51,971 nt of DNA from Oscillospiraceae bacterium (lineage in GTDB: Bacteria > Bacillota > Clostridia > Oscillospirales > Ruminococcaceae), in contig JAITFZ010000003.1 of assembly GCA_031280965.1 (NCBI GenBank), positions 1-51,971 on the forward strand, written 5' to 3'. The number at the start of each line of letters is the position of its first letter. Position 1 is the first letter of the stretch. The notes below the pieces were generated by a model. It worked only from the letters and a program-made list of their open reading frames with translations. It was not told the origin of the DNA and did not search any database. Below are positions 4,085 through 42,630 of the stretch, piece by piece. Made by a program: the position numbers and the translations under genes.

Positions 4085-4110
4085 GAAGAAAGGACTTTAA
4101 TGAAAATATG
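4085..4110 (+). repeat. Leader repeat, partial copy (3' end only)
   Basis: Only the last ~26 nt of the dispersed leader repeat are present (GAAGAAAGGACTTTAATG), ending on the ybeY start codon and supplying its Shine-Dalgarno. See the complete copies at 15939, 18453 and 40851. Confidence 0.6.
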
Positions 4111-4557
4111 AAACTAAATTATAACAACAAAGCAAAGCTTGACAAATCTTTCCGTGCGTTGATAAAAAAAAGCTGTGAAGCCGTTTTGCGCGAAGAAATA
4201 TTTTCAGAAAACGCCGAAGTTTCGGTACTTCTGACAAACAACGAAGAAGTCCGTACATTGAACAGCGAGTTTCGCGGAAAAGATGAACCCACCGATGTGC
4301 TTTCGTTTCCGACTGATGAAGTTAACCCCGAAAACGGTTATATAATGCTCGGCGATATTGTTATTAATGCGGAACTCGCCGCAGAGCGGGCGCGGGAATA
4401 TGGTCACAGCCAAGAACGCGAAATAGCGTTTTTGACAGTACATTCGATGCTTCACCTGCTCGGTTACGAGCATGAAAACGATAAAGCGGGCGAGAAATTA
4501 ATGCGGGAGAAGCAAACGAAAATTCTGCGTGAATCAGGACTGAATATACAGGAGTGA
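4108..4557 (+). CDS. ybeY: Endoribonuclease YbeY
   Basis: YbeY is a zinc-dependent single-strand RNase for 16S rRNA 3'-end maturation and ribosome quality control. The signature H-x3-H-x5-H is HSMLHLLGYEH, with metal ligands H112, H116 and H122, followed by the usual ENDKAGEKLM tail. The GEIVI-like strand appears as LGDIVINAELA. At 149 residues it is full length. The ATG follows the SD in the partial leader repeat. It sits between phoH and dgkA, the standard Bacillota order. Confidence 0.95.
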   Translation: MKLNYNNKAKLDKSFRALIKKSCEAVLREEIFSENAEVSVLLTNNEEVRTLNSEFRGKDEPTDVLSFPTDEVNPENGYIMLGDIVINAELAAERAREYGHSQEREIAFLTVHSMLHLLGYEHENDKAGEKLMREKQTKILRESGLNIQE

Positions 4558-4584
4558 ACAGCGTTCACCCGCAGGGAGAGCAAC

Positions 4585-5094
4585 ATGAAACATTTTTTAA
4601 ACAGTTTTAAATATGCTGTGGGCGGCATATTTTTCTGCATTAAATACGAGCGTAATATGCGCATACATATCGTTATCACGATTTATGTGCTTTATTTTTC
4701 AACGTTTTACGAATTTACGAGGGTTGAAACTATTCTGCTTATTCTGACCTGTGTAGCCGCTGTTTCATTGGAGATGGTGAATACGGCAATCGAAGTCGTG
4801 ATTGACAAGGTTTCCCCGAATTATCACACGCTGGCTAAAATAGGCAAAGACGTGGCGGCGGGCGCGGTTTTAATAGCGACAATCGCAGCAGTAGCAATCG
4901 GAATTATGCTGTTTTGGAACACAGAGATGTTTGTTAAAATCTGGTTCTATTTCACAGGTTCGGTAATTAACGGGTTATTAATGCTTGGTTCGGTTTTGTT
5001 AGCGGTGTTTTTTATCAATTCGGGGAAAAAGCGTAAGGCACGTATAAGAAAAAAAGTCGAGCAAGGACAAGAAAAGGAAAAAAATGAAAAATAA
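4585..5094 (+). CDS. dgkA: Diacylglycerol/undecaprenol kinase family protein
   Basis: A small membrane kinase with the family motif E-M-V-N-T-A-I-E (about residues 53-60), which carries the catalytic Glu, followed by VVIDKVSP and the KD-x-A-A-G-A motif (KIGKDVAAGAVLIA). In Bacillota this family phosphorylates undecaprenol, recycling the lipid carrier for cell-wall synthesis. At 169 residues it is longer than the usual ~120-130: a fourth membrane helix (about 128-150) and a highly charged Lys/Arg/Glu tail are added. Its 3' end overlaps era by 11 nt, so the two are translationally coupled. Confidence 0.88.
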   Translation: MKHFLNSFKYAVGGIFFCIKYERNMRIHIVITIYVLYFSTFYEFTRVETILLILTCVAAVSLEMVNTAIEVVIDKVSPNYHTLAKIGKDVAAGAVLIATIAAVAIGIMLFWNTEMFVKIWFYFTGSVINGLLMLGSVLLAVFFINSGKKRKARIRKKVEQGQEKEKNEK

Positions 5095-5995
5095 CGTATT
5101 CGCGGCAATAGCCGGCAGAGCAAACACAGGAAAATCTACGCTTATGAACCTGATTGTAGGCGATAAGGTTGCCATAGTCAGCGAGAAGCCGCAAACCACG
5201 CGCACCCGTATTCACGGAATTGTCACTAAAGACGGCACACAATTCGTTTTTATTGACACGCCGGGCTTTCATCGTGCGAAAAACAGGCTTTCCGAACATA
5301 TGGTGAAGCAGGCACGTTCAGGCGTGGCAGGCGCTGATGTTGTGCTTATGACAGCGGATTGCACCAAGAAGATTACACCATCAGACCGAATGCTTATTGA
5401 GAGCTTTAAGCCGCTCGGTATTGACGTAATTCTGCTTCTCAACAAAGTTGATTTGGTAAAAGACAAGACAAAACTGCTCACTTTGATTGAGGAATATTCA
5501 AAACTGCATGAATTCGCCGAATTAATTCCCATAAGCGCAAAAACAGGCGAAAATACCGCTAAAATTCTGCCGTTACTGCAAAAATATGTAGTTGCTTCCG
5601 AAAATGGCGGGTATTATTTCCCGGAAAATCTTTCAACCGACCAGGCGGAGAAAGTCTGGCTCGCGGAAATCGTAAGGGAGAAGCTTCTGATGTCTATGCA
5701 TGAGGAGATTCCGCACGGGATTGCCGTTGAAATCGAGAGCATGGAGGAGAGCAAGACCAACAGCGGAAAACCGCTTATTGACGTTTCTGTTGTGGTCATA
5801 TGCGAGAAAGCCGGTCATAAAGGCATGATTATCGGAAAACAAGGTGGAAATCTCAAGAAAATCGGCTCGCAGTCGCGGCTTGAAATGGAGGAGTATTTCA
5901 AATGCAAGGTGAACATGAAGCTATGGGTAAAGGTCAAGGAAGACTGGCGAAACAAGGAGGGTTTCATCGCCGACTTAGGCTTGAATTCAGACTGA
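5084..5995 (+). CDS. era: GTPase Era
   Basis: Era is a ribosome-associated GTPase that binds the 3' end of 16S rRNA and assists 30S assembly. G1 is GRANTGKS (residues 11-18), a variant of the common GRPNVGKS; G3 is DTPG and G4 is NKVD. The C-terminal KH domain has GMIIGKQGGNLKKIGSQSR, the GxxGxxG loop. At 303 residues it is full length. The ATG overlaps the dgkA end, with AAAAGGA upstream. It is followed after 1 nt by recO, a very common pairing. Confidence 0.97.
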   Translation: MKNNVFAAIAGRANTGKSTLMNLIVGDKVAIVSEKPQTTRTRIHGIVTKDGTQFVFIDTPGFHRAKNRLSEHMVKQARSGVAGADVVLMTADCTKKITPSDRMLIESFKPLGIDVILLLNKVDLVKDKTKLLTLIEEYSKLHEFAELIPISAKTGENTAKILPLLQKYVVASENGGYYFPENLSTDQAEKVWLAEIVREKLLMSMHEEIPHGIAVEIESMEESKTNSGKPLIDVSVVVICEKAGHKGMIIGKQGGNLKKIGSQSRLEMEEYFKCKVNMKLWVKVKEDWRNKEGFIADLGLNSD

Positions 5996-5996
5996 T

Positions 5997-6767
5997 ATGT
6001 TAATTACACTTGACGGAATTGTAATAGGCCGGCGCAGTGTCGGCGAAAACAGCCGCTATCTTGATATACTGACCGAGGAACTCGGCGTGATTGAGGTTAC
6101 AGCCCACGCCGTAAAGAAAATCGGCAGTAAAAACGCAGGCAGTGCCGCGCTGTTTACTTATTCCAAATTCTGCCTGAACAAGTCGAAATCACGGGCGGGC
6201 GCCGGTTTTAATTATTCCATCAACAGCGCCGAGCCAATCTACAGCTTTCATAAGCTCTCATCGGACTTCACCGCACTGTCGCTTGCGGCTTACTTCGCCG
6301 ATTTAATTAAATACACATCGGCTTCCGAGCAAAGTTCGGGCGGACTGCTACGCTTTCTTGCGATTAGTCTTTACGAATTAGAAAAAGAAAACACTAATAT
6401 TTCCCGCATTAAAGCTGTTTTTGAACTGAAACTGCTACAGATTCTCGGATTGTCGCCGGATTTGATTACCTGTGCGGAATGTATGCGTTATGAGCATGAG
6501 GAAATGTTTTTTTTAATCGGCGAAGGGATTATAATATGCGCTGATTGCTTTGATGATGCGAAAATAGGGCAGAAAACCCGATATGTACTGAATCACGCGC
6601 TTTTACGGGCAATGCGCTTTATTATCTTCTCGCCGAGCGAAAAAACCTATAAATTTGAGCTTGGTGAAAAAAATCTGCGGGAACTCGGCTTCATAACCGA
6701 AAGCTATCTGCTGTATCATTTAGGGCGGGGATTCAGGACACTCGACTATTTTAAAAGGAATATGTAA
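5997..6767 (+). CDS. recO: DNA repair protein RecO
   Basis: RecO loads RecA with RecR at gaps and breaks (RecFOR pathway). The N-terminal OB fold opens with the family's LDGIVIGRRSVGENSRYLDILTEE-type sequence. The four-cysteine zinc site is C-A-E-C (about residue 158) and C-A-D-C (about 180). At 256 residues the length is normal. The start lies 1 nt after the era stop, and the last base of the stop is shared with the mutS2 ATG. Confidence 0.93.
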   Translation: MLITLDGIVIGRRSVGENSRYLDILTEELGVIEVTAHAVKKIGSKNAGSAALFTYSKFCLNKSKSRAGAGFNYSINSAEPIYSFHKLSSDFTALSLAAYFADLIKYTSASEQSSGGLLRFLAISLYELEKENTNISRIKAVFELKLLQILGLSPDLITCAECMRYEHEEMFFLIGEGIIICADCFDDAKIGQKTRYVLNHALLRAMRFIIFSPSEKTYKFELGEKNLRELGFITESYLLYHLGRGFRTLDYFKRNM

Positions 6768-9172
6768 TGACAAACGACTATAAAAAATTAGAATTAGATA
6801 AAATTTTAAGTCTGCTTTCCGAGCAGGCGTGGAGTGACGGCTGTAAAGAAAAAATCGCCGGAATTGAACCGCTTTTCAAAATAAGCGTTATCCGCGAAGA
6901 ACTGCAAAAAACCGACGATGCTTTCACGCTGTCGGCGAAATTCGGCACACCGCGCTTTTCGCGGATTAAAGACACCTGTGACTGCGTAAAACGCGCCGGA
7001 AGCGGCGCGTCATTGTCACTGCGCGAACTGTTAGACATCTGCGCGGTGATTAAAAGCATCGGCGGACTTGTAAGCTGGTACTCGCAGTGTTCAGGGATTG
7101 AAAATACGCTTGCGGGGTATTTTTCCGTGCTTGTCCCGAACAAAGCCTTGTCCGAGAAAATAGACAACGCAATCCTGTCTGATGAAGCGCTTTCCGACAG
7201 TGCAAGCCCCGAACTTGCCCGAATTCGCAAAGCCATAATTCGCCAGGGACAACACATAAGAGAACAGCTTGATAAGCTTGTCAAGAACCCCGATAAGCAA
7301 AAGTTCCTGCAAGAAAATATCATTACCACAAGGGACGGGCGTTTCGTTGTACCTGTGAGAATCGAGTATAAGGGCGAAATCAGCGGTTTGGTTCATGACA
7401 CATCGGCAAGCGGGCAAACGCTGTTTATAGAGCCTATGGCGGTTGTTGAGGCAAATAATGAAATAAGGCTCTTAAAAGGGCAGGAACAGGCAGAAGTCGA
7501 GCGTATTATCGCAGAACTGAGCAGTGATGTCGGGGATTTTTCGGAAGCGTTGATTCTCGGCTATGAAACGCTTATAAAACTTGAAATGTATTTCGCCAAA
7601 GCCAATCTCGGCGCACGAATGAAAGCAGTAACACCCGAAATAGTTGAATATCGCGACCTGCATAACCGAACGCCCGTTCTGCGCCTGATTAAGGCGAGGC
7701 ACCCTCTTATAAATCAGGATACTGTCGTTCCGGTTACGATTGAACTCGGATTTGATTACACCTGTTTAATTATTACAGGTCCGAACACGGGCGGTAAAAC
7801 CGTGGCTATTAAAACAGCCGGACTTCTTACGTTAATGGCTATGTGCGGGCTTATGATTCCGGCGGCTGACGGAAGCAAGGTCGGGCTTTTCGGCGGCGTG
7901 TACGCCGACATAGGCGATGAACAAAGCATCGAGCAGAGTTTGTCCACGTTTTCATCTCATATGAACAACATCACGCGAATTCTCAAAGCCGCAAATCAAA
8001 ACTCGCTTGTCCTGCTTGATGAACTCGGTTCCGGCACTGACCCGGTTGAAGGTTCGGCGCTTGCGGTTTCGATTCTCGAATACCTTAAAAGCCGCTCGTG
8101 CCTTGTGCTTGCAACCACGCACTATCAGGAAGTTAAGATGTTTGCGATTGAGGAAGAAGGCGTTGAAAACGCAAGCTGTGAATTTGATATAAATACATTG
8201 AAGCCGACCTACAGACTGATTACGGGAATGCCGGGGAAATCGCAGGCGTTTGCGATTGCACAGCGGCTCGGCTTAGACGAGCAGATTATCAAAAGCGCAG
8301 AAAGGCATGTAACGGGCGAGAGTAAACGCTTTGAAAAAACTGTAGAAGCGCTTGAAGCGGCTCGGATTGAACTCGAAGCCGCAAAATCCGAGATTGAGGA
8401 AGAGCGCATAAAAACACTGCGGAACAGTCAATCAGCCGAGAAAATGCGCGAGCAAACCGAATTTGCAAAGGAAAAAGAATTGCAGGCGGCGCGTAACAAA
8501 GCATCGGGGATTATAAACGAGGTCAGACATATTGCGGACGGATTCATTGACGAATTAGAGCAGTTACGCAGGGAAAAAGACAAGGAGGACTTCTCTGAAC
8601 GGGTCAGAAGTGCGCGCTCAAAACTCAATAAAACACTTGATAAAATGCACGACACTGCAAATCCGGTATCAATAAAAAAGCAGGAAACGTACATTCTGCC
8701 GCGCCCGCTTAAAATATATGATACAGTTTTGCTTGTTGACATTGACAAGAAAGGTACGCTTCTGACTTTACCGGATAAATCGGGTAATTGCATGGTTCAG
8801 GTCGGATTAATGAAAACCAAGACAAACCAATCTCAGTTGCGGCTTATTGAGGAAAAAGCCGAAGATAAAATTAAAATCAACAGCAGACATATTTCAACAA
8901 AGGGTTTGCAAAGCAATGCAACACGACAAACCGGCATGGAACTTGACATTCGCGGAATGGCGGCTGATGAGGGTGTCTTAGAAGTTGACCGCTTCATTGA
9001 TTCAAGCATAATGGGCGGACTTCAATTGATTACAATTATCCACGGAAAGGGTACGGGAATTTTGCGCGGCGCGGTTCATCAATTCTTAAAAGGTCACAGA
9101 CAGGTTAAAAACTACAGGCTCGGTGTTTACGGTGAAGGCGAGAGCGGAGTTACTGTCATCGAACTAAAATAA
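6767..9172 (+). CDS. mutS2: Endonuclease MutS2
   Basis: MutS2 is a MutS-like ATPase/nuclease acting on branched DNA and, in Bacillota, on collided ribosomes. An N-terminal core and clamp (residues 1-320) lead into the ATPase: Walker A GPNTGGKT (about 338-345) and Walker B VLLDELGSGTD (about 415-425). A Glu/Lys-rich coiled coil (about 520-620) is followed by a linker and the C-terminal Smr nuclease domain, with LDIRG (about 726) and HGKGTGILR (about 758). At 801 residues it is full length. It is the last gene of the phoH operon. Confidence 0.97.
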   Translation: MTNDYKKLELDKILSLLSEQAWSDGCKEKIAGIEPLFKISVIREELQKTDDAFTLSAKFGTPRFSRIKDTCDCVKRAGSGASLSLRELLDICAVIKSIGGLVSWYSQCSGIENTLAGYFSVLVPNKALSEKIDNAILSDEALSDSASPELARIRKAIIRQGQHIREQLDKLVKNPDKQKFLQENIITTRDGRFVVPVRIEYKGEISGLVHDTSASGQTLFIEPMAVVEANNEIRLLKGQEQAEVERIIAELSSDVGDFSEALILGYETLIKLEMYFAKANLGARMKAVTPEIVEYRDLHNRTPVLRLIKARHPLINQDTVVPVTIELGFDYTCLIITGPNTGGKTVAIKTAGLLTLMAMCGLMIPAADGSKVGLFGGVYADIGDEQSIEQSLSTFSSHMNNITRILKAANQNSLVLLDELGSGTDPVEGSALAVSILEYLKSRSCLVLATTHYQEVKMFAIEEEGVENASCEFDINTLKPTYRLITGMPGKSQAFAIAQRLGLDEQIIKSAERHVTGESKRFEKTVEALEAARIELEAAKSEIEEERIKTLRNSQSAEKMREQTEFAKEKELQAARNKASGIINEVRHIADGFIDELEQLRREKDKEDFSERVRSARSKLNKTLDKMHDTANPVSIKKQETYILPRPLKIYDTVLLVDIDKKGTLLTLPDKSGNCMVQVGLMKTKTNQSQLRLIEEKAEDKIKINSRHISTKGLQSNATRQTGMELDIRGMAADEGVLEVDRFIDSSIMGGLQLITIIHGKGTGILRGAVHQFLKGHRQVKNYRLGVYGEGESGVTVIELK

Positions 9173-9252
9173 TAACATAAAATACGCCATATAATTAATA
9201 TAAAGGTTTTCTCTTTTAACGGGGACGATTATTTATAACGGAGGCGTAGATT

Positions 9253-9894
9253 ATGGATAACAGGAGCGTAAACAAATGCAGGTGCTGTTGCCGCGGACCG
9301 CAGGGACCAAGGGGCGAGCGGGGTGAACAGGGGCTAAAAGGCGAACGCGGACCAAGGGGTTGCCGCGGGTTTCGGGGTGAGCAGGGACCGCCCGGCGAGT
9401 GCAATTGTGAGTGCGTGTCGTCAGGCGAGCTGATTAAAAATGGCGGGATGGAGCATTTCACAGGAAATATCCCAAACGACTGGGTTACTGCTTCGCCTGA
9501 CGCAATTTCACACAATGTTCAAAGCGGAGCCGTGCATACAGGTGAATCGGCGGTGTCAATAGCAGGCGGCGGCGATTTGAGCCAGATTGTACACGTCTTT
9601 GAGGGATGTTTCTACGAGCTGGCTTTCTTTGTGCGCGGCGAAGGCGAAAGAATTGGTTTAACGGCAGAGGTTACTTTCATTACGGAAATAGGCGGCGCTC
9701 CGGCTTTAGCTTCAGGGTTGCGAATCGCTGTAAGGCAACAGGATTTGCCGAGCGGTACGGGAAATTTCGGTTTTTACAGGGGCATTACAACGCGCGCTCC
9801 CGAGGGTGCGACAAGTGCGGAAATAAGATTTGATGTAACGGGTGAGAACGAACAACATTTAGATTTGGATGACGTTTCTTTTATTTTTTCTTAA
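9253..9894 (+). CDS. Short collagen-like protein with C-terminal beta-sandwich
   Basis: A 213-residue protein. Residues 9-13 form a cysteine cluster (CRCCC). Residues 14-49 are about a dozen Gly-x-y triplets rich in Pro, Arg, Glu and Gln, a collagen-like triple helix. A second cysteine cluster (CNCEC) follows. The rest (about 57-213) begins [10 protein letters not shown] and ends [10 protein letters not shown], the frame of carbohydrate-binding-like jelly-roll domains such as the NTTRR-F1 type found on collagen-like surface or spore-coat proteins of Bacillota. There is no signal peptide. GGAGG precedes the ATG. The two Cys clusters could staple the trimer. A spore or cell-surface place is inference. 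Confidence 0.75.
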
Positions 9895-11914: not shown

Positions 11915-11962
11915 AAGAAAATCTCCTTTAACCTTACAAAAGATTTAAGAACAATAAATTGA

Positions 11963-11981
11963 GGGCGGCGGTAAGCCGCCC
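11963..11981 (-). terminator. GC-rich hairpin after tRNA-Pro
   Basis: A 7-bp perfect stem GGGCGGC/GCCGCCC with a 5-nt loop lies just 3' of tRNA-Pro and before the chemotaxis gene. The T-run is poor, so it may only attenuate readthrough. It resembles the hairpins at 26344 and 30846. Confidence 0.45.
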
Positions 11982-11995
11982 GAAGGGTTCTCTTA

Positions 11996-12069
11996 TCGAG
12001 GCGACAGGACTCGAACCTGCGGCATCTTGGTCCCAAACCAAGCACTCTACCAAACTGAGCTACGCCTCG
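11996..12069 (-). tRNA. tRNA-Pro(TGG)
   Basis: On the minus strand, a 7-bp acceptor stem CGAGGCG/CGCCTCG, D-arm TAGCTCAG..GGTAG, anticodon arm with loop TTTGGGA (anticodon TGG) and T-arm GGTTCGAGTCC fold into a complete cloverleaf. The discriminator base is A and CCA is not encoded. A UGG anticodon reads CCA and CCG and often all Pro codons. The leader just upstream is unusual (see the repeat at 12080-12147). Confidence 0.96.
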
Positions 12070-12079
12070 TATTTATTAA

Positions 12080-12147
12080 GAGGCGTAGCTCATTAGCTAC
12101 CTGCCTCGTATTTATAAGAGGCGTAGCTCATTAGCTACCTGCCTCGT
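12080..12147 (-). repeat. Tandem duplicated leader hairpin of tRNA-Pro
   Basis: Two 30-nt units, identical and 38 nt apart (12080-12109 and 12118-12147), lie between the tRNA promoter and the tRNA. On the transcript each folds into an 11-bp hairpin (GAGGC/GCCTC plus GTAGCT/AGCTAC, loop AATG). The 3' arm, TGAGCTACGCCTC, is also a perfect 13-nt complement of the tRNA 5' end GAGGCGTAGCTCA, so each unit could invade the acceptor and D stems. Similar AT-rich spacers separate unit from unit and unit from tRNA. Confidence 0.85.
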
Positions 12148-12161
12148 GAATCAACTTCTTA

Positions 12162-12190
12162 ATTATACACTGTGCGCGTTTTTTTGTCAA
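12162..12190 (-). promoter_or_regulatory. Consensus promoter of tRNA-Pro
   Basis: On the minus strand TTGACA (12190-12185), a 17-nt spacer and TATAAT (12167-12162) are a perfect SigA promoter. Predicted start is near 12155, giving an ~85-nt leader that contains both hairpin units. Confidence 0.85.
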
Positions 12191-12205
12191 GCCTGCTTTT
12201 TTCTG

Positions 12206-12234: not shown

Positions 12235-12276
12235 TAACCAAATACAGACAACATTATCTTATATAAAGGAGCCTTT

Positions 12277-15891: not shown

Positions 15892-15938
15892 TTAACAGAC
15901 AAATAAATCAAAGCAAATTGAAACCGAGGAAGAATAAA

Positions 15939-16019
15939 GGTTGAAACAAAACATAACTTAAACGGGGAAAACGTCGTTTTCATTCCCTGTTGGTGAAGAA
16001 AGGACTTTATGAAAATAAC
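15939..16019 (+). repeat. Leader repeat, short form, before dnaB
   Basis: An ~81-nt copy of the dispersed repeat. It begins TTGAAACAAAACATAACTT, runs through GGGGAAAACGTCG and GTTGGTGAAGAAAGG, and ends at the dnaB ATG. The central palindrome seen in the long form is absent. The ATG inside the repeat (16009) opens a 7-codon ORF overlapping the dnaB start out of frame. Confidence 0.85.
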
Positions 16020-17369
16020 ATGGCGAATTTAGATAATGCTAACCTCCCCTACAGCCTTGACGCGGAACAAGCCGTCTTAGGTTCAATTCTGCTTGACTCA
16101 AAGCTAATCACTGAAGTCACGGACAAGCTTAATCCGCAAAGCTTTCACGTTGGCTTGCACAGCGAGATTTTCGGAGTAATGATGCAGATGTTCGTTACAG
16201 GGCAACCGATTGACATTATTACAGTAATGGAAAATACCGTGCGTCAGGGCGCTTTCGATAATCAGGCAGACGCGAAGTTGTATCTTGCCAAGCTCATGGA
16301 ATCCGCAATCAGCCCGTCAAGTATTGAAAGCTATGCGACGATTATCGCCGAGAAATATATGGTAAGACAGCTCATGTTCGCCTCAAACGAGATTTTCGAC
16401 CTCGCGAGTTCAGGCACGGAAGAACCGCAAAGCCTGCTTGATTTCGCTGAAACCAAGATTTATAATATAAGAAGCGAAAAGGATATAACGGGATTGATGC
16501 CGATTAAATCCACGGTTCTTGAAAAAGTAAAAGAGTTGTCAGAAATCGCCGCAAATCCCGAAACTTATTATAAAAAGTACACCTCCACTTCCTTTGAACG
16601 ACTGGATAAAATGATTTTCGGGCTTGCGCCTGCCGATTTAATCGTAGTCGCAGGCAGACCGGGTATGGGAAAAACCACCTTTGCGGTAAACATTGCCGTT
16701 AATGTATCAAAAAAATACCGCAACAAAAAAATTGCCGTATTCACATTCGAGATGTCGCGTGAACAGCTTGTTGAGAGGATTTTAGCTTCGGAAGCGCGGG
16801 TCGAAACCGACCGAATGGTTAAAGGCGATATTGACCGTAACGGCTGGAAAAAAATAAGTGAAGCCACCGAGTTTCTTTCAACTCTTGAAATTTACATTGA
16901 TGATACACCAAGCGTTTCTGTAGGCGAAATGAAGGCTAAACTCCGCCGAATGAAAGACGTCGGCGTTGTGGTAATCGACTACTTGCAGCTTATGTCAACC
17001 GGCGGAAAACACACGAACAGAGTTGCAGAGGTCGGCGAAATCACGAGAAGCCTTAAAATAATGGCTAAAGAACTTGGCGTACCGGTAATTTTGGCGTCAC
17101 AGCTTTCCCGCGATGTAGAAAAACGCTCGGGTGATAAGCGCCCGATAGCGTCCGACCTTCGCGATTCGGGTACAATCGAGCAGGACGCAGACATTGTTAT
17201 AATGCTGTACAGAGAAAGCTTTTATAATAAGGAAACCGAGTTCCCAAACAAGTGCGAGTGTATAATTGTAAAGAACCGGCGCGGTGAAACCGGCACTTTC
17301 GATTTGAACTTTGAGGGAGAATACTACAGCTTTACATCAGCGGAGTTTATTCATGTTAGCGAATATTAA
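16020..17369 (+). CDS. dnaB: Replicative DNA helicase DnaB
   Basis: Hexameric replicative helicase (DnaC of B. subtilis naming). The N-terminal domain begins LPYSLDAEQAVLGSILLD; the RecA-like ATPase has Walker A AGRPGMGKTT (about residue 210), Walker B VVVIDYLQLM, and the arginine-finger region LRDSGTIEQDADIVIMLYR. I chose ATG 16020 (MANLDN), giving 449 residues. The frame extends upstream to TTG 15990, but those codons are leader repeat, also found before hpt, so they are not protein. The 3' end overlaps tilS by 17 nt. Confidence 0.96.
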   Translation: MANLDNANLPYSLDAEQAVLGSILLDSKLITEVTDKLNPQSFHVGLHSEIFGVMMQMFVTGQPIDIITVMENTVRQGAFDNQADAKLYLAKLMESAISPSSIESYATIIAEKYMVRQLMFASNEIFDLASSGTEEPQSLLDFAETKIYNIRSEKDITGLMPIKSTVLEKVKELSEIAANPETYYKKYTSTSFERLDKMIFGLAPADLIVVAGRPGMGKTTFAVNIAVNVSKKYRNKKIAVFTFEMSREQLVERILASEARVETDRMVKGDIDRNGWKKISEATEFLSTLEIYIDDTPSVSVGEMKAKLRRMKDVGVVVIDYLQLMSTGGKHTNRVAEVGEITRSLKIMAKELGVPVILASQLSRDVEKRSGDKRPIASDLRDSGTIEQDADIVIMLYRESFYNKETEFPNKCECIIVKNRRGETGTFDLNFEGEYYSFTSAEFIHVSEY

Positions 17370-18356: not shown

Positions 18357-18395
18357 TATTTGGTTAGGGTATTCAAAATGACAGAGACAGATAAA

Positions 18396-18452
18396 AAGTT
18401 TGAAACAAAATATAATTAAAATGTTGGTGAGGAAAGGACTTTATGAAAATAA
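18396..18452 (+). repeat. Leader repeat, internally deleted copy (first of a tandem)
   Basis: It starts AAGTTTGAAACAAAATATAA, lacks the middle, and resumes at GTTGGTGAGGAAAGGAC, ending ATGAAAATAAGC. It is joined directly to the next copy, so units can be arranged head to tail. Confidence 0.85.
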
Positions 18453-18547
18453 GCTTGAAACAAAAAATAACTGAAATGGGGAAAATGTCGTTTTCGCTTC
18501 GTTTAAAAACGAAGCCATCCTCTGTTGGTGAGGAAAGGACTTTATGA
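18443..18547 (+). CDS. Possible 34-codon leader peptide within the repeats
   Basis: ATG 18443 sits 4 nt after AAAGGAC of the first repeat and opens a 34-codon frame spanning the whole second repeat, ending TGA at 18545. The peptide would be basic and Ser/Thr-rich (MKISLKQKITEMGKMS...). Its stop overlaps ATG 18544 of a three-codon ORF (M-K-K-stop), whose stop overlaps the hpt ATG (18552), giving an ATGA-ATGA relay suited to translational coupling. The same frame stays open in the copy at 40851 (conserved ...TLFSLRFKTKLSSVSEERTL), which starts with TTG. Translation is unproven. Confidence 0.3.
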   Translation: MKISLKQKITEMGKMSFSLRLKTKPSSVGEERTL

Positions 18548-18551
18548 AAAA
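18453..18551 (+). repeat. Leader repeat, long form with palindrome, before hpt
   Basis: A full ~99-nt unit: TTGAAACAAAAAATAACTG, GGGGAAAATGTCG, then the palindrome GCTTCGTTT-AA-AAACGAAGC (18496-18515), CATCCTCTGTTGGTGAGG, and AAAGGACTTTATG. It ends on the hpt start codon. Confidence 0.88.
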
Positions 18552-19088
18552 ATGAACAACGATGTCGAAAGAATTATATGCAGTGAGGAGCAAATTGCCG
18601 TGGCTGTAAAACAGCTCGGGGCGAGGATTACAGAAGATTACGCCGGAAAGCGACCTGTTTTACTCTGCGTCTTGAAAGGCGCATCGCTTTTCCACGCCGA
18701 TTTAATAAGAGCTGTTAATCTGCCCTGCGAAGTTGATTTTATCACAGCAAAATCTTACGGCATGGGCGCGAAAAGCTCGGGAAAGCTTCGTATTCTGAAA
18801 GAACCCGACATTAATATATGCGGGCGTGACTTAATCATAGTCGAGGATATTCTCGACACGGCCGTAACATTATCAGCGCTGATACATACCCTTTTGGAAA
18901 GTAAGCCGTCTTCAATCAAAACCGCGGTTTTCTTAGATAAGAACATTGGACGCGAAAAGCCGGTTAAAGCCGATTATAAGTGCTTTGATGCTGAAAACGA
19001 GTTTCTTGTGGGGTACGGGCTTGATTATGCCGAGAGGTACAGGAATCTGCCTTATGTAGGCGTTTTAAAAAGAGAAATTTACGAATGA
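18552..19088 (+). CDS. hpt: Hypoxanthine phosphoribosyltransferase
   Basis: Purine salvage enzyme making IMP and GMP from hypoxanthine or guanine and PRPP. The PRPP loop is LIIVEDILDTAVTLSAL (about residue 96-112); the usual D-(S/T)-G is D-T-A here, a mild deviation. LLCVLKGASLFHADLIR and FLVGYGLDYAERYRNLPYVGVL are family hallmarks. It has 178 residues from ATG 18552; upstream in-frame codons belong to the leader repeat. It is followed by ftsH, as usual in Bacillota. Confidence 0.93.
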   Translation: MNNDVERIICSEEQIAVAVKQLGARITEDYAGKRPVLLCVLKGASLFHADLIRAVNLPCEVDFITAKSYGMGAKSSGKLRILKEPDINICGRDLIIVEDILDTAVTLSALIHTLLESKPSSIKTAVFLDKNIGREKPVKADYKCFDAENEFLVGYGLDYAERYRNLPYVGVLKREIYE

Positions 19089-21868: not shown

Positions 21869-21951
21869 ATATTTTCTTAAAAACCCTTTCTTTACCAACA
21901 AGGAATGAAAATAACATTTTTCCCGCTTCAGTTGTATTTTGTTTCAAACTT
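21869..21951 (-). repeat. Leader repeat, short form, inverted orientation
   Basis: On the minus strand: AAGTTTGAAACAAAATACAA, CTGAAGCGGGAAAAATG, TTTTCATTCCTTGTTGGTAA and AGAAAGGGTTTTTAAG. It lacks the palindrome, as does the dnaB copy. It is the only copy pointing away from its downstream gene (the ferredoxin on the plus strand), showing that the element can be inverted. Confidence 0.8.
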
Positions 21952-36446: not shown

Positions 36447-37570
36447 TCTGCGTTGCTTTCCTCCGGAAGCTCGTTAACGGTTGCCTTAAAATAATCGGTC
36501 TGACAGATTGGTCTGCCAAATTCATCATATTGCTCGGCTTGGTCAACAGAACCGCCGCCGAAACCGCCGCTTTGCCATCCGTTTGCTGTATTGGTTGTGT
36601 CGGCAGAGTTAATAGTCTGTCCCGTGCTGTTATATTGATTTTCCTGCCCGTTATATAGGTTAACATCGGGCTGCTCAATTGACTGTTGCTGAATCGGTTC
36701 AAGGTTCCTGATTGCCTTAGGTATCGCTATAACCGCAAATCCGCAGATTATGAAGAACTCAACGAGCCATATAAGCCAAAGTATAATTCCTCTTATATTT
36801 GTACTTGTTGAATTTTCACTGGGAAATGAGCTGGCACTGTAACTCCAGCGCCCCTCGTTATTAATTCTGACAATAGTATTGATTAATTGAGCGGGATTTG
36901 TTAAATAATAAATCGCTGTCGGATAATCTTGATATTTCAATAAGTGATTATAATAACTGAACCAGCTTAAATTATATTCATCTATTATAACCCTCACGGC
37001 ATCGCTGACCGAACCGTACGACAGATATTCGTAATACCCCATATATTCATAGAAAGTATAATCCTTTAAAATCTGTAAGTCCTCTTTATCCCATAAGCTG
37101 AGTTCCCACAGTTCTTCCTGCCCATATGTTATTATGTATTCATACGCACTCATTTCCCGCATGTCTGTTATGATTTCACGCAGTTCGGAATCGGAATAGA
37201 GAACCCTCTCGCTGTTCAAAAAGTCATCCTCAAAAGCGAAAAAGTACCATTCTGTATAACTTTCACTTATATCGCTTGAAGCGTCCGTCGCAACATATAA
37301 CGCCCACTTGAAACAAGTAAACACTAAGCAACCGAGTATAACGGCGGTAATCGCGAGCGCGAGCGTTTTAATCTTGAACAGCTTTATTATCATCGCGGAA
37401 ACTAAGCCCATAACCGCACCAAGAGCAACCGCCGCCAGTACGCATAAGTAGATAAAAGGTATTACTCTGTTAACCCATAAGTAAAAAAAACTAAGTACAG
37501 AGCCGGCAAGTGCGGTTCCCGCAAACAGGAATAACAAACCGATTGGGTTTACTTTACTTTCAGAATTCAT
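36443..37570 (-). CDS. Hypothetical membrane protein
   Basis: A 375-residue protein. Three hydrophobic helices lie at about residues 10-32, 37-60 and 68-90, and a fourth at about 275-298. Between them a soluble region (about 95-270) is very rich in Tyr, Glu and Ser (TYGQEELWELSLWDKEDLQILKDY...). The C-terminal tail is low-complexity Gln/Asn/Gly/Ser. No family recognised. Its ATGA overlaps the DJ-1 start. Confidence 0.6.
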   Translation of the reverse strand: MNSESKVNPIGLLFLFAGTALAGSVLSFFYLWVNRVIPFIYLCVLAAVALGAVMGLVSAMIIKLFKIKTLALAITAVILGCLVFTCFKWALYVATDASSDISESYTEWYFFAFEDDFLNSERVLYSDSELREIITDMREMSAYEYIITYGQEELWELSLWDKEDLQILKDYTFYEYMGYYEYLSYGSVSDAVRVIIDEYNLSWFSYYNHLLKYQDYPTAIYYLTNPAQLINTIVRINNEGRWSYSASSFPSENSTSTNIRGIILWLIWLVEFFIICGFAVIAIPKAIRNLEPIQQQSIEQPDVNLYNGQENQYNSTGQTINSADTTNTANGWQSGGFGGGSVDQAEQYDEFGRPICQTDYFKATVNELPEESNAE

Positions 37571-37590
37571 GATGTTTCTCCTTTAGTTAA

Positions 37591-37992
37591 TTATTTATGC
37601 TCTTTGTAGTATTTACCGAACTGACTGTCAGCGGATTTAATGTGTTTTACTATCCAGCCGACAATTGAATTGCTGAGTGTCAGCGTGAATTTAGGCGAAG
37701 GCCCGTTTGCGGCAAACTCGGTTTTAAGTTTTTGGAATTCTGCAATGTATTGCTTGTGCAGGTTTTGATGCGTTTGAAACTGCGGGTAATTGCATTGTTT
37801 TTGAAGCTCTTCCTCGTCACGGAAATGCTTAACGATATAATCGCCGAGCAAGTCAATGGTTTTCTGAGTTTCTTCTTTTGAAATAGATTTTAGCCCCATC
37901 GATGTAACGGCGTTAATTCTGTCAACTAACTCCATATGCTGTTCATCGATTTTTTTTACACCGGTTTCCATGTCTTTTGATAATGTAATCAT
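37591..37992 (-). CDS. Bacteriohemerythrin
   Basis: A 133-residue four-helix non-heme di-iron O2-binding protein. The complete ligand set is present: H19, H56 and E60 (HFRDE), H75 and H79 (HQNLH), H117 and D122 (HIKSAD). In anaerobes such proteins are thought to store or scavenge O2 or sense it. It lies just downstream of the oxygen-sensitive IorA on the same strand, so protection of that enzyme is an attractive but unproven idea. Confidence 0.93.
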   Translation of the reverse strand: MITLSKDMETGVKKIDEQHMELVDRINAVTSMGLKSISKEETQKTIDLLGDYIVKHFRDEEELQKQCNYPQFQTHQNLHKQYIAEFQKLKTEFAANGPSPKFTLTLSNSIVGWIVKHIKSADSQFGKYYKEHK

Positions 37993-38021
37993 GTTTGCTT
38001 TCCTTTCGGGTTATTTTCTGC

Positions 38022-39773
38022 TTATGAAAATGCATCGAATTTACAAAGCTGCGCGCAAATACCGCACCCTACACAAAGCGTCCTGTTTATAACCGCTTTC
38101 TTGTTCTTCATGGTAAGCGCGGGACAGCCGATTTTCATGCAAATCCTGCAGCCTGTACATTTTTCCGCGTCGCACTTAATGGCGGGTTTGTGCTTCACGC
38201 CTTTAATAAGCGCGCAGGGCTTTCTGAATATAATAACGGCGGGTTCTTCAAGCGCAAGGTATTCTTTTATTACCTTTTCGATTTCAACTAAATTTTCGGG
38301 GATGACAGTCATGACTTTAGAAATCCCGATTGCTTTGCAAAGTGCCTCGAAGTCAACTTCGGGAGCAGGGTCGTCATAAATGTCAAGCCCGTTGCCCGGA
38401 TGATTCTGACCGCCGGTCATGCCCGTTGTCCTGTTATCAAGGAGCAGGGTTAATGTGTTGCTTCTGTTATAAGCAATGTCAATAAGGCTGGTGATTCCGT
38501 TGTGAATGAAGGTTGAGTCGCCCATAAGCCCGACAGTCTTGTCCGCATAATCAGGTCTTACCTTTACGAAGCCGTGCGCCATGCTTATTCCGGCGCCCAT
38601 GCAGATTTGCATATCCATAGCGGAAAGCGGAGGCGTCGCCGCAAGCGTATAACAGCCGATGTCGCCGCTGACGACAATTCCGAGTTTATTCAAAACATAA
38701 AACACGCCTCTGTGCGAACAGCCCGCGCAAAGCACCGGAGGGCGAACGGGTACAGCTTCGGGGAATTCTTTATATTCAGACTGCTTGCCCGTGATTGCTT
38801 CTTTGATGATGTTTTGCGAGTATTCGCCAATGTTGGAGAAAATCGGGGCAGTTTTACCGCCGGGCAACTTTCCAATCGGTTCAAGCCCAATCACGCGGCA
38901 ATGTGTTTCAATCACTGGGTCGAGTTCTTCAACTACGTAGAGCTTTTTTACTTTAGATGCAAAGTCTTTAATAAGATTTACGGGAAGCGGGTTAACTATG
39001 CCGAGTTTAAGGTAGCTTGCGCTGTCGCCGAGTGCTTCCTTTGCGTATTGATACGCAACCCCCGATGAAATTATTCCGATTTCGGCTTTTTCATTAATTT
39101 CAACTTTGTTCAGCGGTGAGGTTTCGGCGTATTCCCTAAGCTTATTAATGCGCTCTTCAACCAAAACATGCTTCGCCCTTGCAAAAAGGGGCATCATAAC
39201 ATACTTATGCAAATCCTTTTTATAAGGCTCTTTAACTCTTTCTTTACGTTCGCCTTTTTCAATTATTCCCTGCGAGTGGCAAACTCTTGTGGAAAGCCTT
39301 ATAAGTACGGGCGTATCGAACTCCTCGGAAATATCAAACGCTAATTTTGTAAATTCAAAGCAGTCTTTTGTATCTGTAGGCTCAAGCATAGCCACCTTTG
39401 CGCCGATGGCATGGGTGCGGGAATCCTGCTCGTTCTGCGATGAATGCATTCCGGGGTCGTCTGCTACGGCAAATACAAGCCCGCCGTTTACGCCGGCATA
39501 TGATGCGGTATAAAGCGGGTCGGCGGCTACGTTCAGCCCTACATGCTTCATACCCGAAAACGCTCTTGCGCCTGCTATGCTTGCGCCGATTGCAACTTCC
39601 GCGCCGACTTTTTCGTTTGGCGACCATTCCGCATACATTCCCGTGCCTTTGTAAGCGGCGCAGTTCATTGTTATTTCCGAGCTTGGGGTTCCGGGATAGC
39701 TTGAAACGAGTTCTACTCCCGCTTCATACAACGCTCTCGTAATCGCGTGATTACCGAGTAATAATTCTTTCAT
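38022..39773 (-). CDS. iorA: Indolepyruvate:ferredoxin oxidoreductase, alpha subunit
   Basis: Oxidatively decarboxylates aryl-pyruvates from aromatic amino acids to aryl-acetyl-CoA with reduced ferredoxin. A 583-residue protein: N-terminal POR domain (LLGNHAITRALYEAGVELVSSYPGTPSSEI), C-terminal TPP domain (GDSTFIHNGITSLIDIAYNRSNTLTLLLDNRTTGMTGGQ), and two 4Fe-4S motifs at the end (CTGCRICMKIGCP, CVGCGICAQLCK). The usual partner iorB is not adjacent, so it must lie elsewhere in the genome. Confidence 0.94.
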   Translation of the reverse strand: MKELLLGNHAITRALYEAGVELVSSYPGTPSSEITMNCAAYKGTGMYAEWSPNEKVGAEVAIGASIAGARAFSGMKHVGLNVAADPLYTASYAGVNGGLVFAVADDPGMHSSQNEQDSRTHAIGAKVAMLEPTDTKDCFEFTKLAFDISEEFDTPVLIRLSTRVCHSQGIIEKGERKERVKEPYKKDLHKYVMMPLFARAKHVLVEERINKLREYAETSPLNKVEINEKAEIGIISSGVAYQYAKEALGDSASYLKLGIVNPLPVNLIKDFASKVKKLYVVEELDPVIETHCRVIGLEPIGKLPGGKTAPIFSNIGEYSQNIIKEAITGKQSEYKEFPEAVPVRPPVLCAGCSHRGVFYVLNKLGIVVSGDIGCYTLAATPPLSAMDMQICMGAGISMAHGFVKVRPDYADKTVGLMGDSTFIHNGITSLIDIAYNRSNTLTLLLDNRTTGMTGGQNHPGNGLDIYDDPAPEVDFEALCKAIGISKVMTVIPENLVEIEKVIKEYLALEEPAVIIFRKPCALIKGVKHKPAIKCDAEKCTGCRICMKIGCPALTMKNKKAVINRTLCVGCGICAQLCKFDAFS

Positions 39774-39809
39774 TCTTTTTTCTCGCTTTCTTTTTAATAT
39801 ACATGATTA

Positions 39810-39855
39810 AGTATAACATAAAATTATTGACGCGTCAACAAATTTGTGATAGAAT
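39810..39855. promoter_or_regulatory. Divergent promoters sharing a palindromic -35
   Basis: The palindrome TTGACGCGTCAA (39827-39838) provides TTGACG to both strands. Plus: 17 nt, then TAGAAT (39850-39855). Minus: 17 nt, then TATACT (39815-39810). The plus promoter drives the lipoprotein gene, the minus one iorA. Confidence 0.75.
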
Positions 39856-39883
39856 TTAATTACTAAGTAAACGGAGAGTAAAA

Positions 39884-40852
39884 ATGAAAAAACTGACATG
39901 CTTAATTCTGACCGCAGTATTAATAATTACAATGGCGGGATGCAATGAAAAAGAAACGGCTGATAACGGGCAACCGACAATCGGTCAGAATAACACACAC
40001 GAAACATCTTCAAATAACTATAATGAAGAAGTTACAACCGAACCCGAAAATCCGCTCGAACCACCGGAGCCGCCGGACCCCCCTGATTATATCGCGATTG
40101 CAAAACGGTTGCAAAACGACAGTCACGGCAGGATTTATATCGGTATGGCTGACCTTATGAACCCGAACGGCTACAGGTATGCAGACGAACCGGGCACGAT
40201 TCACCCTGCGAGTACAATCAAGTGTATGATTATGGAATATGCCCTTTTGCAGATTGAGTCGGGAAACGCAGAGCTTAGCAGTATACAGGACGGTTACACG
40301 CTCTTATACCTTATTGAGCGAATGATACAAGTTTCGTGCAACGACAGCACAGGCTCGCTGATTGCCCGCTTCGGACGCGAAAATATTGATAACTGGCTAC
40401 AGGAGAATTACGGTGATACCCGTCTTTATTCCGACTGGCGCGGATATAATCACCAAAACAGGTATAATCAGACGAGCGTTGAAGACACTATAGTTTTTTT
40501 AGAGAAAATGTGGGTAAACAGAACCGCACAGCCTTATGAAAGAATGCTCGATATTATGTACGGAACGACTTTTTCGCGTGAAAAAATCCCTGCCGCCACA
40601 GAAGGAATCCCGGGTGTCAAGGTTGGTAATAAAACAGGTTCGTTTGTTGACGGAGCGGGTACCGCCGACCATGATATGGCGGTTGTCGTGAAGTTCGGTT
40701 CGGACGGTGAAATTGAGTTTGCCTATGCTTTAACGTTCTACTCGTTTTCGCAGCATGTCGAGAGTACTTATTCCGTAGCACGTCCCGCAATCGTAGCGAT
40801 GGCGCGTGATATTTACGAGCAGGTCAGTTCATTTCACTTTTCGGAAGAATAA
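39884..40852 (+). CDS. Beta-lactamase-fold serine hydrolase lipoprotein
   Basis: A 322-residue secreted lipoprotein with lipobox TMAGC (Cys20), a Pro/Glu/Thr/Asn-rich linker (about 25-70), then a class-A beta-lactamase-like domain. The catalytic SxxK is S110-T-I-K113 (HPASTIKCM), the SxN motif is S151-C-N153 and KTG is K250-T-G. A class A Glu166 equivalent is not obvious, so penicillin-binding or carboxypeptidase-like function is as likely as lactam hydrolysis. It is transcribed divergently from iorA. Confidence 0.85.
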   Translation: MKKLTCLILTAVLIITMAGCNEKETADNGQPTIGQNNTHETSSNNYNEEVTTEPENPLEPPEPPDPPDYIAIAKRLQNDSHGRIYIGMADLMNPNGYRYADEPGTIHPASTIKCMIMEYALLQIESGNAELSSIQDGYTLLYLIERMIQVSCNDSTGSLIARFGRENIDNWLQENYGDTRLYSDWRGYNHQNRYNQTSVEDTIVFLEKMWVNRTAQPYERMLDIMYGTTFSREKIPAATEGIPGVKVGNKTGSFVDGAGTADHDMAVVVKFGSDGEIEFAYALTFYSFSQHVESTYSVARPAIVAMARDIYEQVSSFHFSEE

Positions 40853-40952
40853 GTTTGAAACAAAATACAACTAAAACGGGAAAAACGTTGTTTTCGCTTC
40901 GTTTTAAAACGAAGCTATCCTCTGTTAGTGAAGAAAGAACTTTATGAAAATA
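40851..40952 (+). repeat. Leader repeat, long form, after the lipoprotein gene
   Basis: A full ~102-nt copy beginning on the stop codon of the lipoprotein gene. It contains the perfect 20-nt palindrome GCTTCGTTTTAAAACGAAGC (40896-40915) and ends GAAAGAACTTTATGAAAATAA. Here no gene follows directly; a terminator does. Confidence 0.88.
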
Positions 40953-40958
40953 AAGTTA

Positions 40959-40999
40959 AAATAAATAAAGCCGTAAATTTCTTACGACTTTATTTATTT
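40959..40999 (+). terminator. Long AT-rich terminator hairpin
   Basis: A 12-bp stem AAATAAATAAAG/CTTTATTTATTT (40959-40970, 40988-40999) plus an inner CGTAA/TTACG. The right arm runs into the -35 of the next promoter. Confidence 0.75.
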
Positions 41000-41025
41000 G
41001 ACTTTTTATTTATTTATGTTATACT
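40998..41025 (+). promoter_or_regulatory. Promoter of the GH10-like gene
   Basis: TTGACT (40998-41003), 16 nt, TATACT (41020-41025), overlapping the terminator end. Confidence 0.6.
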
Positions 41026-41066
41026 TATTCATAAGTGAAAATTTTATTTTACCGGAGATGAATTAT

Positions 41067-42521
41067 ATGAAAAAGCGTATTTTTTCCTTATTTTTAACTG
41101 TATCTTTAATTCTTGTTCCGTTTACGGCTCTTGCCGAAACGCCTTTAATGCAAACCATCGACTTTGAAGACGGTACGCGAAACGGCTTCACAGGTAACGC
41201 GCCTAATGTAAGATTAGCGGTTTCCACAGTTCAAGCCCGCTCCGGCAACCGCTCGCTTCTGACGACGGGTCGCGAACTTAAACAGGACGGACCGTCGCTC
41301 CATATTGAGCAGTACGTTGAGCCTGAAGTTGTTTACACGGTTTCGGCGTGGGTTCGGCTCAGAACGCCCGCTTCTGCCGAGGTTTCCCTGATGACGCAGG
41401 CGGCGGGTACAACGCGGCGCGTCATCGATACAAAAACCGCCGTAAGAACAGGCTGGGTTCTGTTAACCGGGCGTGTTTCATACAGCGTGGAAGACGTTAT
41501 TTCCGAGCAGATAACCATTTATATCCAAAGCGCCGATGAAACCGCCGAATTTTACATAGACGATGTTTCCCTTGTTCCGTTCGTTGATACAACTCTTGAG
41601 CTCGAACTCGCTTTACAGGCGTCTGAATTACCCGCACTGAATAAATTTTACAGCGACCACTTCCCTCTCGGAGTTATTGCCGAAGCTGAAAATCCGGAAG
41701 AACTCCAGGCTTTTCAGCACCACTTCGGCACGGTTGAATCCGAAAATAACATAAAATCGGTTGGTGTAACAGGTGAAAACGACTTTGATTATATCTACGA
41801 CACCTTTGTTTCTGCAAGATTGGAAAATTTGGAGAAAAAGCTTTATTATATTGATGAAAGCTTTTATGATTTAACAAAAGTTCGCTCTGCCATTATCATA
41901 ATCAGAGAAATCAACGCTCGCTGGGCAAACGACCCACGCAACATCGTCCCTGACCGCCTGCTTGTTGAAGGCGTAAGCAACCAATCGCACTTTAACACAA
42001 AAACAGACCTTTATAACGTGGAGGAAGCGCTGAAGCTTTTCATTACAACCGGTGTTTACGTAGATATTACCGAGCTTGATGTAAGCATAGCGGCTTCCGC
42101 AACCCCCACGAGCCTGAACACGGTTCCCGCGCCGATTGACTTTCACGAGCAAGCCGAAATGTACGCAAACCTTATGCAGTTATACAAAAAATATTCAGAC
42201 TATATTTCAAGGGTTTCGTTTAATGCGCTCCCCTTTAACGGCGACCTGACGCCGAATCTCGCTTATTTCGCCATAGCCGACCCCGAGGGTTATCTCGCCG
42301 GAAACTTCGATACCTTGGAAAAAGTTAATGCGTGGCTTGAAGCAAGCACCATACCCGATGAACCGTTCACCGAAGACGATGCGCTGATTATCCTTAAAAG
42401 CGAAGTCGGTTTGCTTACGCTGACGGCATGGCAGAAAAGAATCTACGACTTAAACGGTGACGGCGTTATTGATTCGGACGACGCGCTGATTATACTTAAA
42501 ATGATTGTTGGGCTGATTTAA
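41067..42521 (+). CDS. CBM22-GH10-like-dockerin protein with deleted catalytic core
   Basis: A 484-residue secreted protein: signal peptide (1-23, cut after ALA), CBM22-like xylan-binding module (about 28-172), GH10 xylanase-like region (about 180-425) and a C-terminal dockerin-like segment (about 435-484). The GH10 part starts normally (PALNKFYSDHFPLGV) to SENNIKS, then jumps to a late segment (KLYYIDESFYDL, SNQSHFN, VYVDITELDVS). The nucleophile Glu is kept (E336), but about 100 residues with HTLVWH and the acid/base Glu of the DVVNE motif are missing. Only the second dockerin repeat keeps a Ca2+ loop (DLNGDGVIDSDD); the first is eroded. It probably binds rather than cuts. ATG 41067 is preceded by GGAG. 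Confidence 0.85.
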   Translation: MKKRIFSLFLTVSLILVPFTALAETPLMQTIDFEDGTRNGFTGNAPNVRLAVSTVQARSGNRSLLTTGRELKQDGPSLHIEQYVEPEVVYTVSAWVRLRTPASAEVSLMTQAAGTTRRVIDTKTAVRTGWVLLTGRVSYSVEDVISEQITIYIQSADETAEFYIDDVSLVPFVDTTLELELALQASELPALNKFYSDHFPLGVIAEAENPEELQAFQHHFGTVESENNIKSVGVTGENDFDYIYDTFVSARLENLEKKLYYIDESFYDLTKVRSAIIIIREINARWANDPRNIVPDRLLVEGVSNQSHFNTKTDLYNVEEALKLFITTGVYVDITELDVSIAASATPTSLNTVPAPIDFHEQAEMYANLMQLYKKYSDYISRVSFNALPFNGDLTPNLAYFAIADPEGYLAGNFDTLEKVNAWLEASTIPDEPFTEDDALIILKSEVGLLTLTAWQKRIYDLNGDGVIDSDDALIILKMIVGLI

Positions 42522-42539
42522 AAAAACGAGGAAACTAAG

Positions 42540-42630
42540 ATGAAGAAAGGATTTTATAAATAAAATATAACTGAAATGGGGAAAATGTCGTTAAAATTCC
42601 TCGTTGGTGAAGAAAGGACTTTATTAAAAT
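42540..42630 (+). repeat. Leader repeat, tandem short form
   Basis: A truncated end (ATGAAGAAAGGATTTTAT) is followed directly by a nearly full short unit (ATAACTGAAATGGGGAAAATG, TTGGTGAAGAAAGG) that abuts the next ATG. The same head-to-tail junction is seen before hpt. The repeat's own ATG is mutated to ATT. Confidence 0.85.

Follow-up and report, generated by a model that had tools for sequence, protein, structure and literature searches.

Eukaryotic short interspersed nuclear elements (SINEs) are nonautonomous, form subfamilies and combine a fixed 3' end with 5'-shortened copies. Elements of the REP/RAYT and IS200/IS605-derived kinds have neither terminal inverted repeats nor target duplications and take one orientation relative to their target. 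These features of both groups are shared by the repeat described here. According to the accessible part of PMC3049150, the BOX, RUP and SPRITE repeats of Streptococcus pneumoniae are enriched between convergent genes, and miniature inverted-repeat transposable elements (MITEs) have terminal inverted repeats, a base-paired structure and target duplications. The repeat of this study was noticed in a 51,971-nt stretch (contig JAITFZ010000003.1 of the Oscillospiraceae assembly GCA_031280965.1), called the window hereafter. A sequence-only reading of the window had proposed a dispersed leader repeat of no recognised family, which brings a ribosome-binding site (RBS) to the front of unrelated genes. 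Extending the analysis to whole genomes, we find that the repeats very probably constitute a family of short nonautonomous mobile cassettes carrying a start codon and an RBS, which insert in sense orientation between the native Shine-Dalgarno (SD) sequence and the start codon of a gene.

Results

In the genome of the window (G000, a draft of 2.01 Mb in 36 contigs, 98.8% complete), the 17-mer RAAGGACTTTATGAAAA returned 131 matches with at most two mismatches, 68 on one strand and 63 on the other, while the reversed control gave 2; the numerous genome-wide copies that the sequence-only reading called for are thus present. At least 29 BLAST matches of 60 nt or more were obtained with one 101-nt unit (40 of 110 candidates scored). 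Exact occurrences of a 21-mer were sought in 84,980 species, a scan that detects the CTTTATG form only, so that species with other subfamilies could escape it. Two further carriers emerged, the Oscillospiraceae metagenome-assembled genomes (MAGs) Pal332_bin19 (G148) and Lab288P3bin172 (G149, 2.2 Mb). Local 21-mers with up to three mismatches matched 105 times in G148 and 330 times in G149, with controls at 0; pattern counts contain chance matches, e.g. L021 and L025 at three mismatches (L numbers denote loci extracted from these genomes). The isolates presumably come from termite guts, to judge from their names. Across 148 genomes of the family, the next highest 17-mer count was 22 against a control of 17 (G135), and a modest excess over control appeared in G089 (21 vs 4) and G005 (20 vs 6), where matches were counted but not read. 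A profile search of 396 family genomes, insensitive in that 12 candidates were scored per genome and G000 itself yielded just 17 matches, found three other genomes with one weak match apiece; the seven listed congeners had none. The 5' motif had no match in the congeners G015 and G132, and the phage and plasmid collections had none to an 81-nt unit.

The unit measures about 80 nt and reaches about 99 nt where an optional hairpin, GCTTCGTTTTAAAACGAAGC, occupies its middle. Its layout is AAGTTTGAAAC...GGGGAAAA...GTTGGTGAAGAAAGGACTTWATGAAAAT followed by ATG, and the profile consensus is AGTTTGAAACAAAATACAACTGAAACGGGGAAAACGTTGTTTTCATTCCTCGTTGGTGAAGAAAGGACTTAATGAAAAT, usually with A before it and ATG after it. 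The 3' end contains an extended SD, AGAAAGGA, and the junction with the start codon reads CTTTATG in G000 and mostly CTTAATG in G148 and G149. At 94 G000 sites that were read (31 of the 131 matches fell outside the reading), the profile search distinguished 117 units, arranged as 75 singles, 15 doubles and 4 triples, i.e. arrays at 19 of the 94 sites. Within G000 arrays, neighbouring units resemble each other more closely (similarity 0.923, n = 10) than other pairs do (0.844), which indicates that arrays grow at least partly through local duplication. The 3' end is reached by 114 of the 117 units; the 5' end is variable, with 33 of the 94 first units shortened. Among these 33, the window unit at 18396 has the 5' end and lacks the middle, and six others display a weak 5'-like match upstream, possibly by chance. 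In L180 and L202 of G149, inner array joints retain ATG (GAAAATATGTTTGAAA) where AAG is expected, as though insertion had duplicated the start codon.

No conserved fold accompanies this conserved layout: RNAalifold returned zero consensus pairs for 34 diverse 80-nt units, and single-sequence folds had z values from -0.35 to -1.56, although the 99-nt form does have its hairpin as a stem in the minimum free energy (MFE) structure. The palindrome is an optional module, as the sequence-only reading had described it. Rfam matched only two tRNAs in the whole window, and for the stretch 18380-18570 gave four matches far under the gathering threshold (E 2-4.6). We dropped a structured RNA on account of the missing pairing and Rfam match, and a promoter role because no -35/-10 pair was noticed in the unit on inspection by eye. 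At L120 and L161 of G148 the middle of the unit merges with a longer stretch of several hairpins (TAGTCGTTT..AAACGACTA..); the same stretch lies upstream of carA, where a unit can be recognised by its far 3' end alone.

The excess of copies directly before start codons proposed from the window holds across the genome. An open reading frame (ORF; accepted at 60 codons or more, or when continuing past the end of the examined stretch) follows 88 of the 94 terminal units in G000. Its start codon stands one base after GAAAA (directly after GAAAAT) in 66 cases, three bases further in 12, at the ATG within the element in 9 and at +11 in one. Random positions drawn from this DNA fall on the exact offset in 0.7% and on one of the three main offsets in 2.4%. 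The placement is not circular, since the patterns that recruited the G000 loci end 5' of the start codon. The 21-mer used for G148 and G149 includes the ATG, which renders the position and start-codon counts (31/31 and 34/34 ATG) partly circular, and the subset recruited by the 5' motif was used instead; there the exact offset is seen at 14/17 loci in G148 and 6/11 in G149, with the remaining five of G149 at most 4 nt away from it.

Directly 5' of full-length first units we observed an SD motif in 30/48 cases in G000, 18/22 in G148 and 19/32 in G149; control windows placed farther 5' gave 3, 4 and 3, respectively. Representative junctions (marked by a slash) are ggaggtatta/AAGTTTG at L087, ccggaggacat/AAGTTTG at L099 and aggaggataaaa/AAGTTTA at L033. 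For 25 of the 30 motifs of G000, 4-7 nt separate the end of the motif from the junction, the usual distance from an SD to its start codon. Since most full-length copies still have a native SD directly 5' of them, the element goes in sense orientation into the gap that separates SD and start codon. The leader-repeat reading is thereby extended, as the unit moves the native SD and the start codon apart and seems to supply an ATG of its own. Shortened first units of G000 have an upstream SD in 3/33 cases (control 4/33), so that AGAAAGGA of the element is mostly the sole SD there.

The start codon that follows a unit is ATG in 88/88 G000 cases and 27/27 of the 5'-motif subset of G148 and G149, compared to ATG in 88/109 and TTG or GTG in 21/109 of element-free G000 starts with an SD (background starts were assigned by an SD-first guess in ORFs of 150 codons or more). 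The pheT and lysC genes begin with TTG in both relatives, which have no element there, and with ATG in G000, where they carry the element; thus, the ATG seems to arrive together with it. AGGA is intact in 143/153 last units and 30/38 inner units (p = 0.011), the contrast being visible in G000. This retention, the invariant ATG and the missing native SD at shortened units suggest that the last unit may be the working RBS. Congener G132 has the 16S tail CCTCCTTTCT, to which AGAAAGGA is complementary, and PMC13009471 describes extended SD motifs for Staphylococcus aureus, consistent with the extended SD here.

A different mode of initiation has to be weighed against direct use of the gene's ATG. 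The ATG within the element (ATGAAAAYATGA) could open a three-codon mini-cistron whose stop overlaps the ATG of the gene, which would then be read by termination-reinitiation. In 88 of 139 terminal units such a frame does stop at a TGA overlapping the gene's ATG, and A occupies +4 in 64/78 cases vs 53/109 background starts. However, such an ATG is missing from 28 of the 139, and last units retain it barely better (120/153) than inner units do (28/38). Moreover, in 9 of the 94 G000 cases, aroQ and rdgB among them, the ORF begins at that very ATG, although in some (L024, L033, L090) the true start may be a second in-frame ATG. We consider the mini-cistron less likely than initiation without it.

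How the copies travel bears on two further alternatives. Terminal inverted repeats were not found, the best local match of the ends scoring 4, which 97% of shuffles equal or exceed. Comparing the two flanks of 88 copies for matches of 1-6 nt revealed no more of them than shuffled pairs did, in a test that has little power at 1-2 nt since nearly all copies are flanked by A and ATG; a suspected 2-bp YA target duplication was discarded on this ground. The movers searched for were the Y1 and RVT_1 families. Y1 transposase (PF01797) matched in none of the three carriers and seven times in congener G132, which has no 5'-motif match, and an IS200-type mover was set aside. RVT_1 frames of 233, 599 and 501 aa occur in G000, G148 and the element-free G132, respectively, and none in G149, the genome with most copies. 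No unit lies near RVT_1 genes in the stretches examined around them, and RVT_1 is not common to all three carriers, which speaks against a reverse-transcriptase partner. The reverse-transcriptase-like ORF of G000 (233 aa; C16:4307-4771, L207) has no element copy in the surrounding stretch.

The first of the two alternatives is a SINE-like retroposon, an mRNA leader reverse-transcribed after priming at start codons through AUG microhomology, which would account for the shared 3' end and frequent 5' truncation. The fixed 3' and variable 5' ends fit, although at least one shortened copy, that at 18396, is an internal deletion, and so do the constant sense orientation, the ATG that apparently comes with the element, the enrichment of AAC as codon 2 (17/78 vs 3/109 background) and the hisS gene of G000, where nothing but a 3' end occupies a site that is conserved otherwise. 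In contrast, native SDs are mostly absent from shortened copies (seen in 3/33), so that later deletion is favoured over truncation at arrival, and we ceased to take 5' truncation for proof of reverse transcription. Target duplication does not exceed chance (a weak point for 1-2 nt), and no RVT_1 protein is found in the carrier richest in copies. At L141 (also L153) in G148, a second copy without its 5' end is flanked by a 12-bp repeat, ATGATAGTTACA, from the gene start. A retroposon would produce such a repeat as a target duplication; tandem duplication explains it equally well, and it may be either. On this evidence we regard the retroposon as rather unlikely. Less likely still is an ordinary MITE or repeat derived from an insertion sequence (IS), inserting widely and surviving at start codons only through selection. 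Short size, lack of autonomy, high copy number and the hairpin in some copies would suit it, yet the ends, flanks and lack of Y1 (the transposase family searched for) do not, nor does the fact that 66 of 94 terminal units lie in sense at exactly one offset, as harmless sites should then be used too.

The preferred reading, a mobile cassette entering at the SD-start codon gap, finds further evidence in empty sites, which the sequence-only reading had proposed to look for in relatives. Orthologues of 25 element-bearing G000 genes were compared, rows below 48% identity being removed. In G149 a unit lies upstream in 11/23 and is missing in 12/23; in G148, 5/19 have a unit, coaD shows what is left of one, weakly, and the other 13 have no scored unit, although among these 13 carA shows a remnant by eye which the profile missed. 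The G148 row of rbr is a paralogue, the likely orthologue L249 looking empty, and the alignment of the G148 gpmI row falls at the end of the upstream gene. Congener G206 has a unit at 0/9 orthologues. Empty sites include hisS (both relatives), dxr (G148), metF (G149), lysC, pheT, rpe and rsmG, the clearest being hisS, where the relatives read gataatgaggtaatacaATG and gataacgaggtaattaaATG and G000 reads gataatgagataaaGGAGAAGAAAGGACTTTATGAAAATATG. An old, vertically inherited regulatory leader (of a regulon or riboswitch-like), kept for the control of many genes, would explain units at the same gene in some orthologues (gmk, pfkA, glmU, pyrH) and the apparently old copies before rplT, but it is highly improbable given the many orthologues without a scored unit, the different subfamilies at one gene, the varied targets including a phage, and the lack of a conserved fold or Rfam match.

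Subfamilies also speak for mobility of the cassette. The same gene is occupied by different subfamilies in two species in the cases of pfkA, rbr and the window gene at 42631 (by eye), which indicates separate insertions. A young subfamily of G148 (GAAACAAAATACGACTG...) has 5 of 29 full units identical. Both G148 and G149 have subfamilies of their own, and from these sequences the element appears to have moved in each lineage. In both G148 and G149, a degenerate, apparently old unit occupies the same position before a putative rplT (L137 and L154).

One unit was met in a phage. The viral contig IMGVR_UViG_3300010167_000078 carries head, tail-sheath and tape-measure genes plus a unit of G149 type, located between GGAGGTAAAC and ATGAGC, with the end of the contig ten codons further. 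Among 12 listed of 38 related phage matches to the upstream gene, 11 have no unit before the next ATG, in comparisons at about 40-54% protein identity. The other viral hit, L270, is L123 of G149 (identical over 800 nt), i.e. not a second phage case.

Within the window, all seven units named by the sequence-only reading are present, including the head-to-tail pair and the minus-strand copy, and four adjoin start codons as it stated. A 3'-end-only unit (GAAGAAAGGACTTTAATGAAAAT; 4085..4107, +) adjoins the ATG of ybeY (4108..4557, +; endoribonuclease YbeY, PF02130, E 2.5e-43). A full 80-nt unit of the GGTTG subfamily (15938..16019, +), preceded by a native SD-like GAGGAAG, adjoins that of the replicative helicase gene dnaB (16020..17369, +; PF03796/PF00772). 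The tandem pair consists of a unit without central block (18396..18451, +) and a full 99-nt hairpin unit (18452..18551, +) with the palindrome GCTTCGTTTAAAAACGAAGC at 18496..18515 (+; sequence, MFE stem), adjoining the ATG of a phosphoribosyltransferase gene (18552..19088, +; PF00156). Finally, a 3' fragment (42542..42560, +) and a nearly complete unit lacking its 5' end (42558..42630, +) precede a gene for a small protein without Pfam family (42631..43077, +); the G148 gene with the same N-terminus (L145, by eye) has another subfamily. Pfam thus bears out the labels ybeY and dnaB, gives a phosphoribosyltransferase (hpt-like) for hpt, and assigns no family to the supposed membrane protein.

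Two full units are orphans. The ATG after the 80-nt unit at 21869..21951 (-) opens merely a 7-codon ORF (MKYENTD*), and the 99-nt hairpin unit at 40851..40951 (+), with its palindrome GCTTCGTTTTAAAACGAAGC at 40896..40915 (+; sequence, MFE stem), overlaps the stop codon of the upstream gene and has an SD-like CGGAAG directly 5'. That upstream gene (39884-40852) has a Beta-lactamase2 domain (PF13354). Elsewhere in the window, two perfect 33-nt direct repeats with starts 38 nt apart (12077-12147) lie beside a tRNA-Pro gene (11996-12069), and a GH10 gene with CBM_4_9 (41028-42521) has a C terminus that is dockerin-like by eye (NGDGVIDSDDALIILKMIVGL).

Discussion

We propose that insertion would leave the native SD 80-100 nt away, too distant to serve, and that the extended SD of the element plus its accompanying ATG would become the initiation site of the gene. 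The native SD and the 5' part of the element would then be dispensable and could be lost by deletion, selection retaining the 3' SD and ATG, and in arrays only the last unit would be read. The weakest step is the choice of start sites, made by a putative recombination machinery acting in trans, possibly because the 3' end of the element (SD, spacer, ATG) resembles the target; arrays could arise through local duplication or repeated use of one site. We infer true targeting of start sites in preference to selection alone, because harmless sites elsewhere seem unused.

Several observations weigh against this account. Six of the 94 terminal units in G000 precede no ORF, and no upstream SD is seen for 18, 4 and 13 full-length first units in G000, G148 and G149, respectively. 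The 16S tail CCTCCTTTCT was not found in G000, G148, G149 or G206, and the AGGA-to-ATG spacing in the element is 12 nt, the commonest being 7-8 nt. The last-versus-inner contrast in AGGA is absent in G148 (29/31 vs 8/8) and weak in G149 (p = 0.11). Neither mover family searched for is common to the carriers, Y1 being missing from all three draft genomes and RVT_1 from G149. For the nearest relative of the phage, at 85% in the sheath, no alignment was obtained at this place. Lastly, G148 and G149 are MAGs and G000 a draft, and the kinship of the former two to G000 is not stated. As for the units without ORF, at least three of the six (the window unit at 40851, L057 and L079) retain an SD-like run directly upstream, which suggests that they may be start sites whose gene has been lost.

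On balance, we lean towards a new class of mobile element that targets the translation start site via its SD-spacer-ATG signature, either in DNA or in mRNA at the initiating ribosome, that has replaced the RBSs of a sizeable share of genes (330 pattern matches in the 2.2 Mb of G149) and that also enters phages. If true, it would be a natural mobile RBS, it would provide many before/after pairs for the effects of SD strength, spacing and start-codon choice on expression, and it would imply machinery able to find start codons. The element can also mislead the annotation of gene starts.

In agreement with the initial impression of no described family, neither Rfam nor the literature offered a counterpart. 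Literature searches found no start-codon-targeted or RBS-carrying mobile repeat, which is weak evidence as most subscription papers lay outside them. We know of no kind of element that joins mobility with insertion at the gap between SD and start codon. It differs from the REP/RAYT and IS200/IS605 elements in that its carriers have no Y1 transposase match and its ends no conserved hairpins, and from SINEs in its location at start codons, without above-chance target duplication or an identified reverse-transcriptase partner. Like MITEs, it is short, nonautonomous and high in copy number, although none of the three MITE features listed in the accessible part of PMC3049150 was found, consensus base pairing in 34 units included. 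As set out there, BOX, RUP and SPRITE resemble it as short dispersed repeats of a 2-Mb genome, and BOX is likewise modular with a variable middle module, boxA/boxC being reported to raise downstream expression. The terminal inverted repeats of RUP, which resemble those of IS630-Spn1, have no counterpart in the element, and none of the three is described in that part of PMC3049150 as a carrier of an SD to start codons, a comparison made by description rather than by sequence. Altogether, pneumococcal-type repeats are enriched where harm is small, whereas the element described here hits the translation-start signal itself and would persist by supplying a working replacement.

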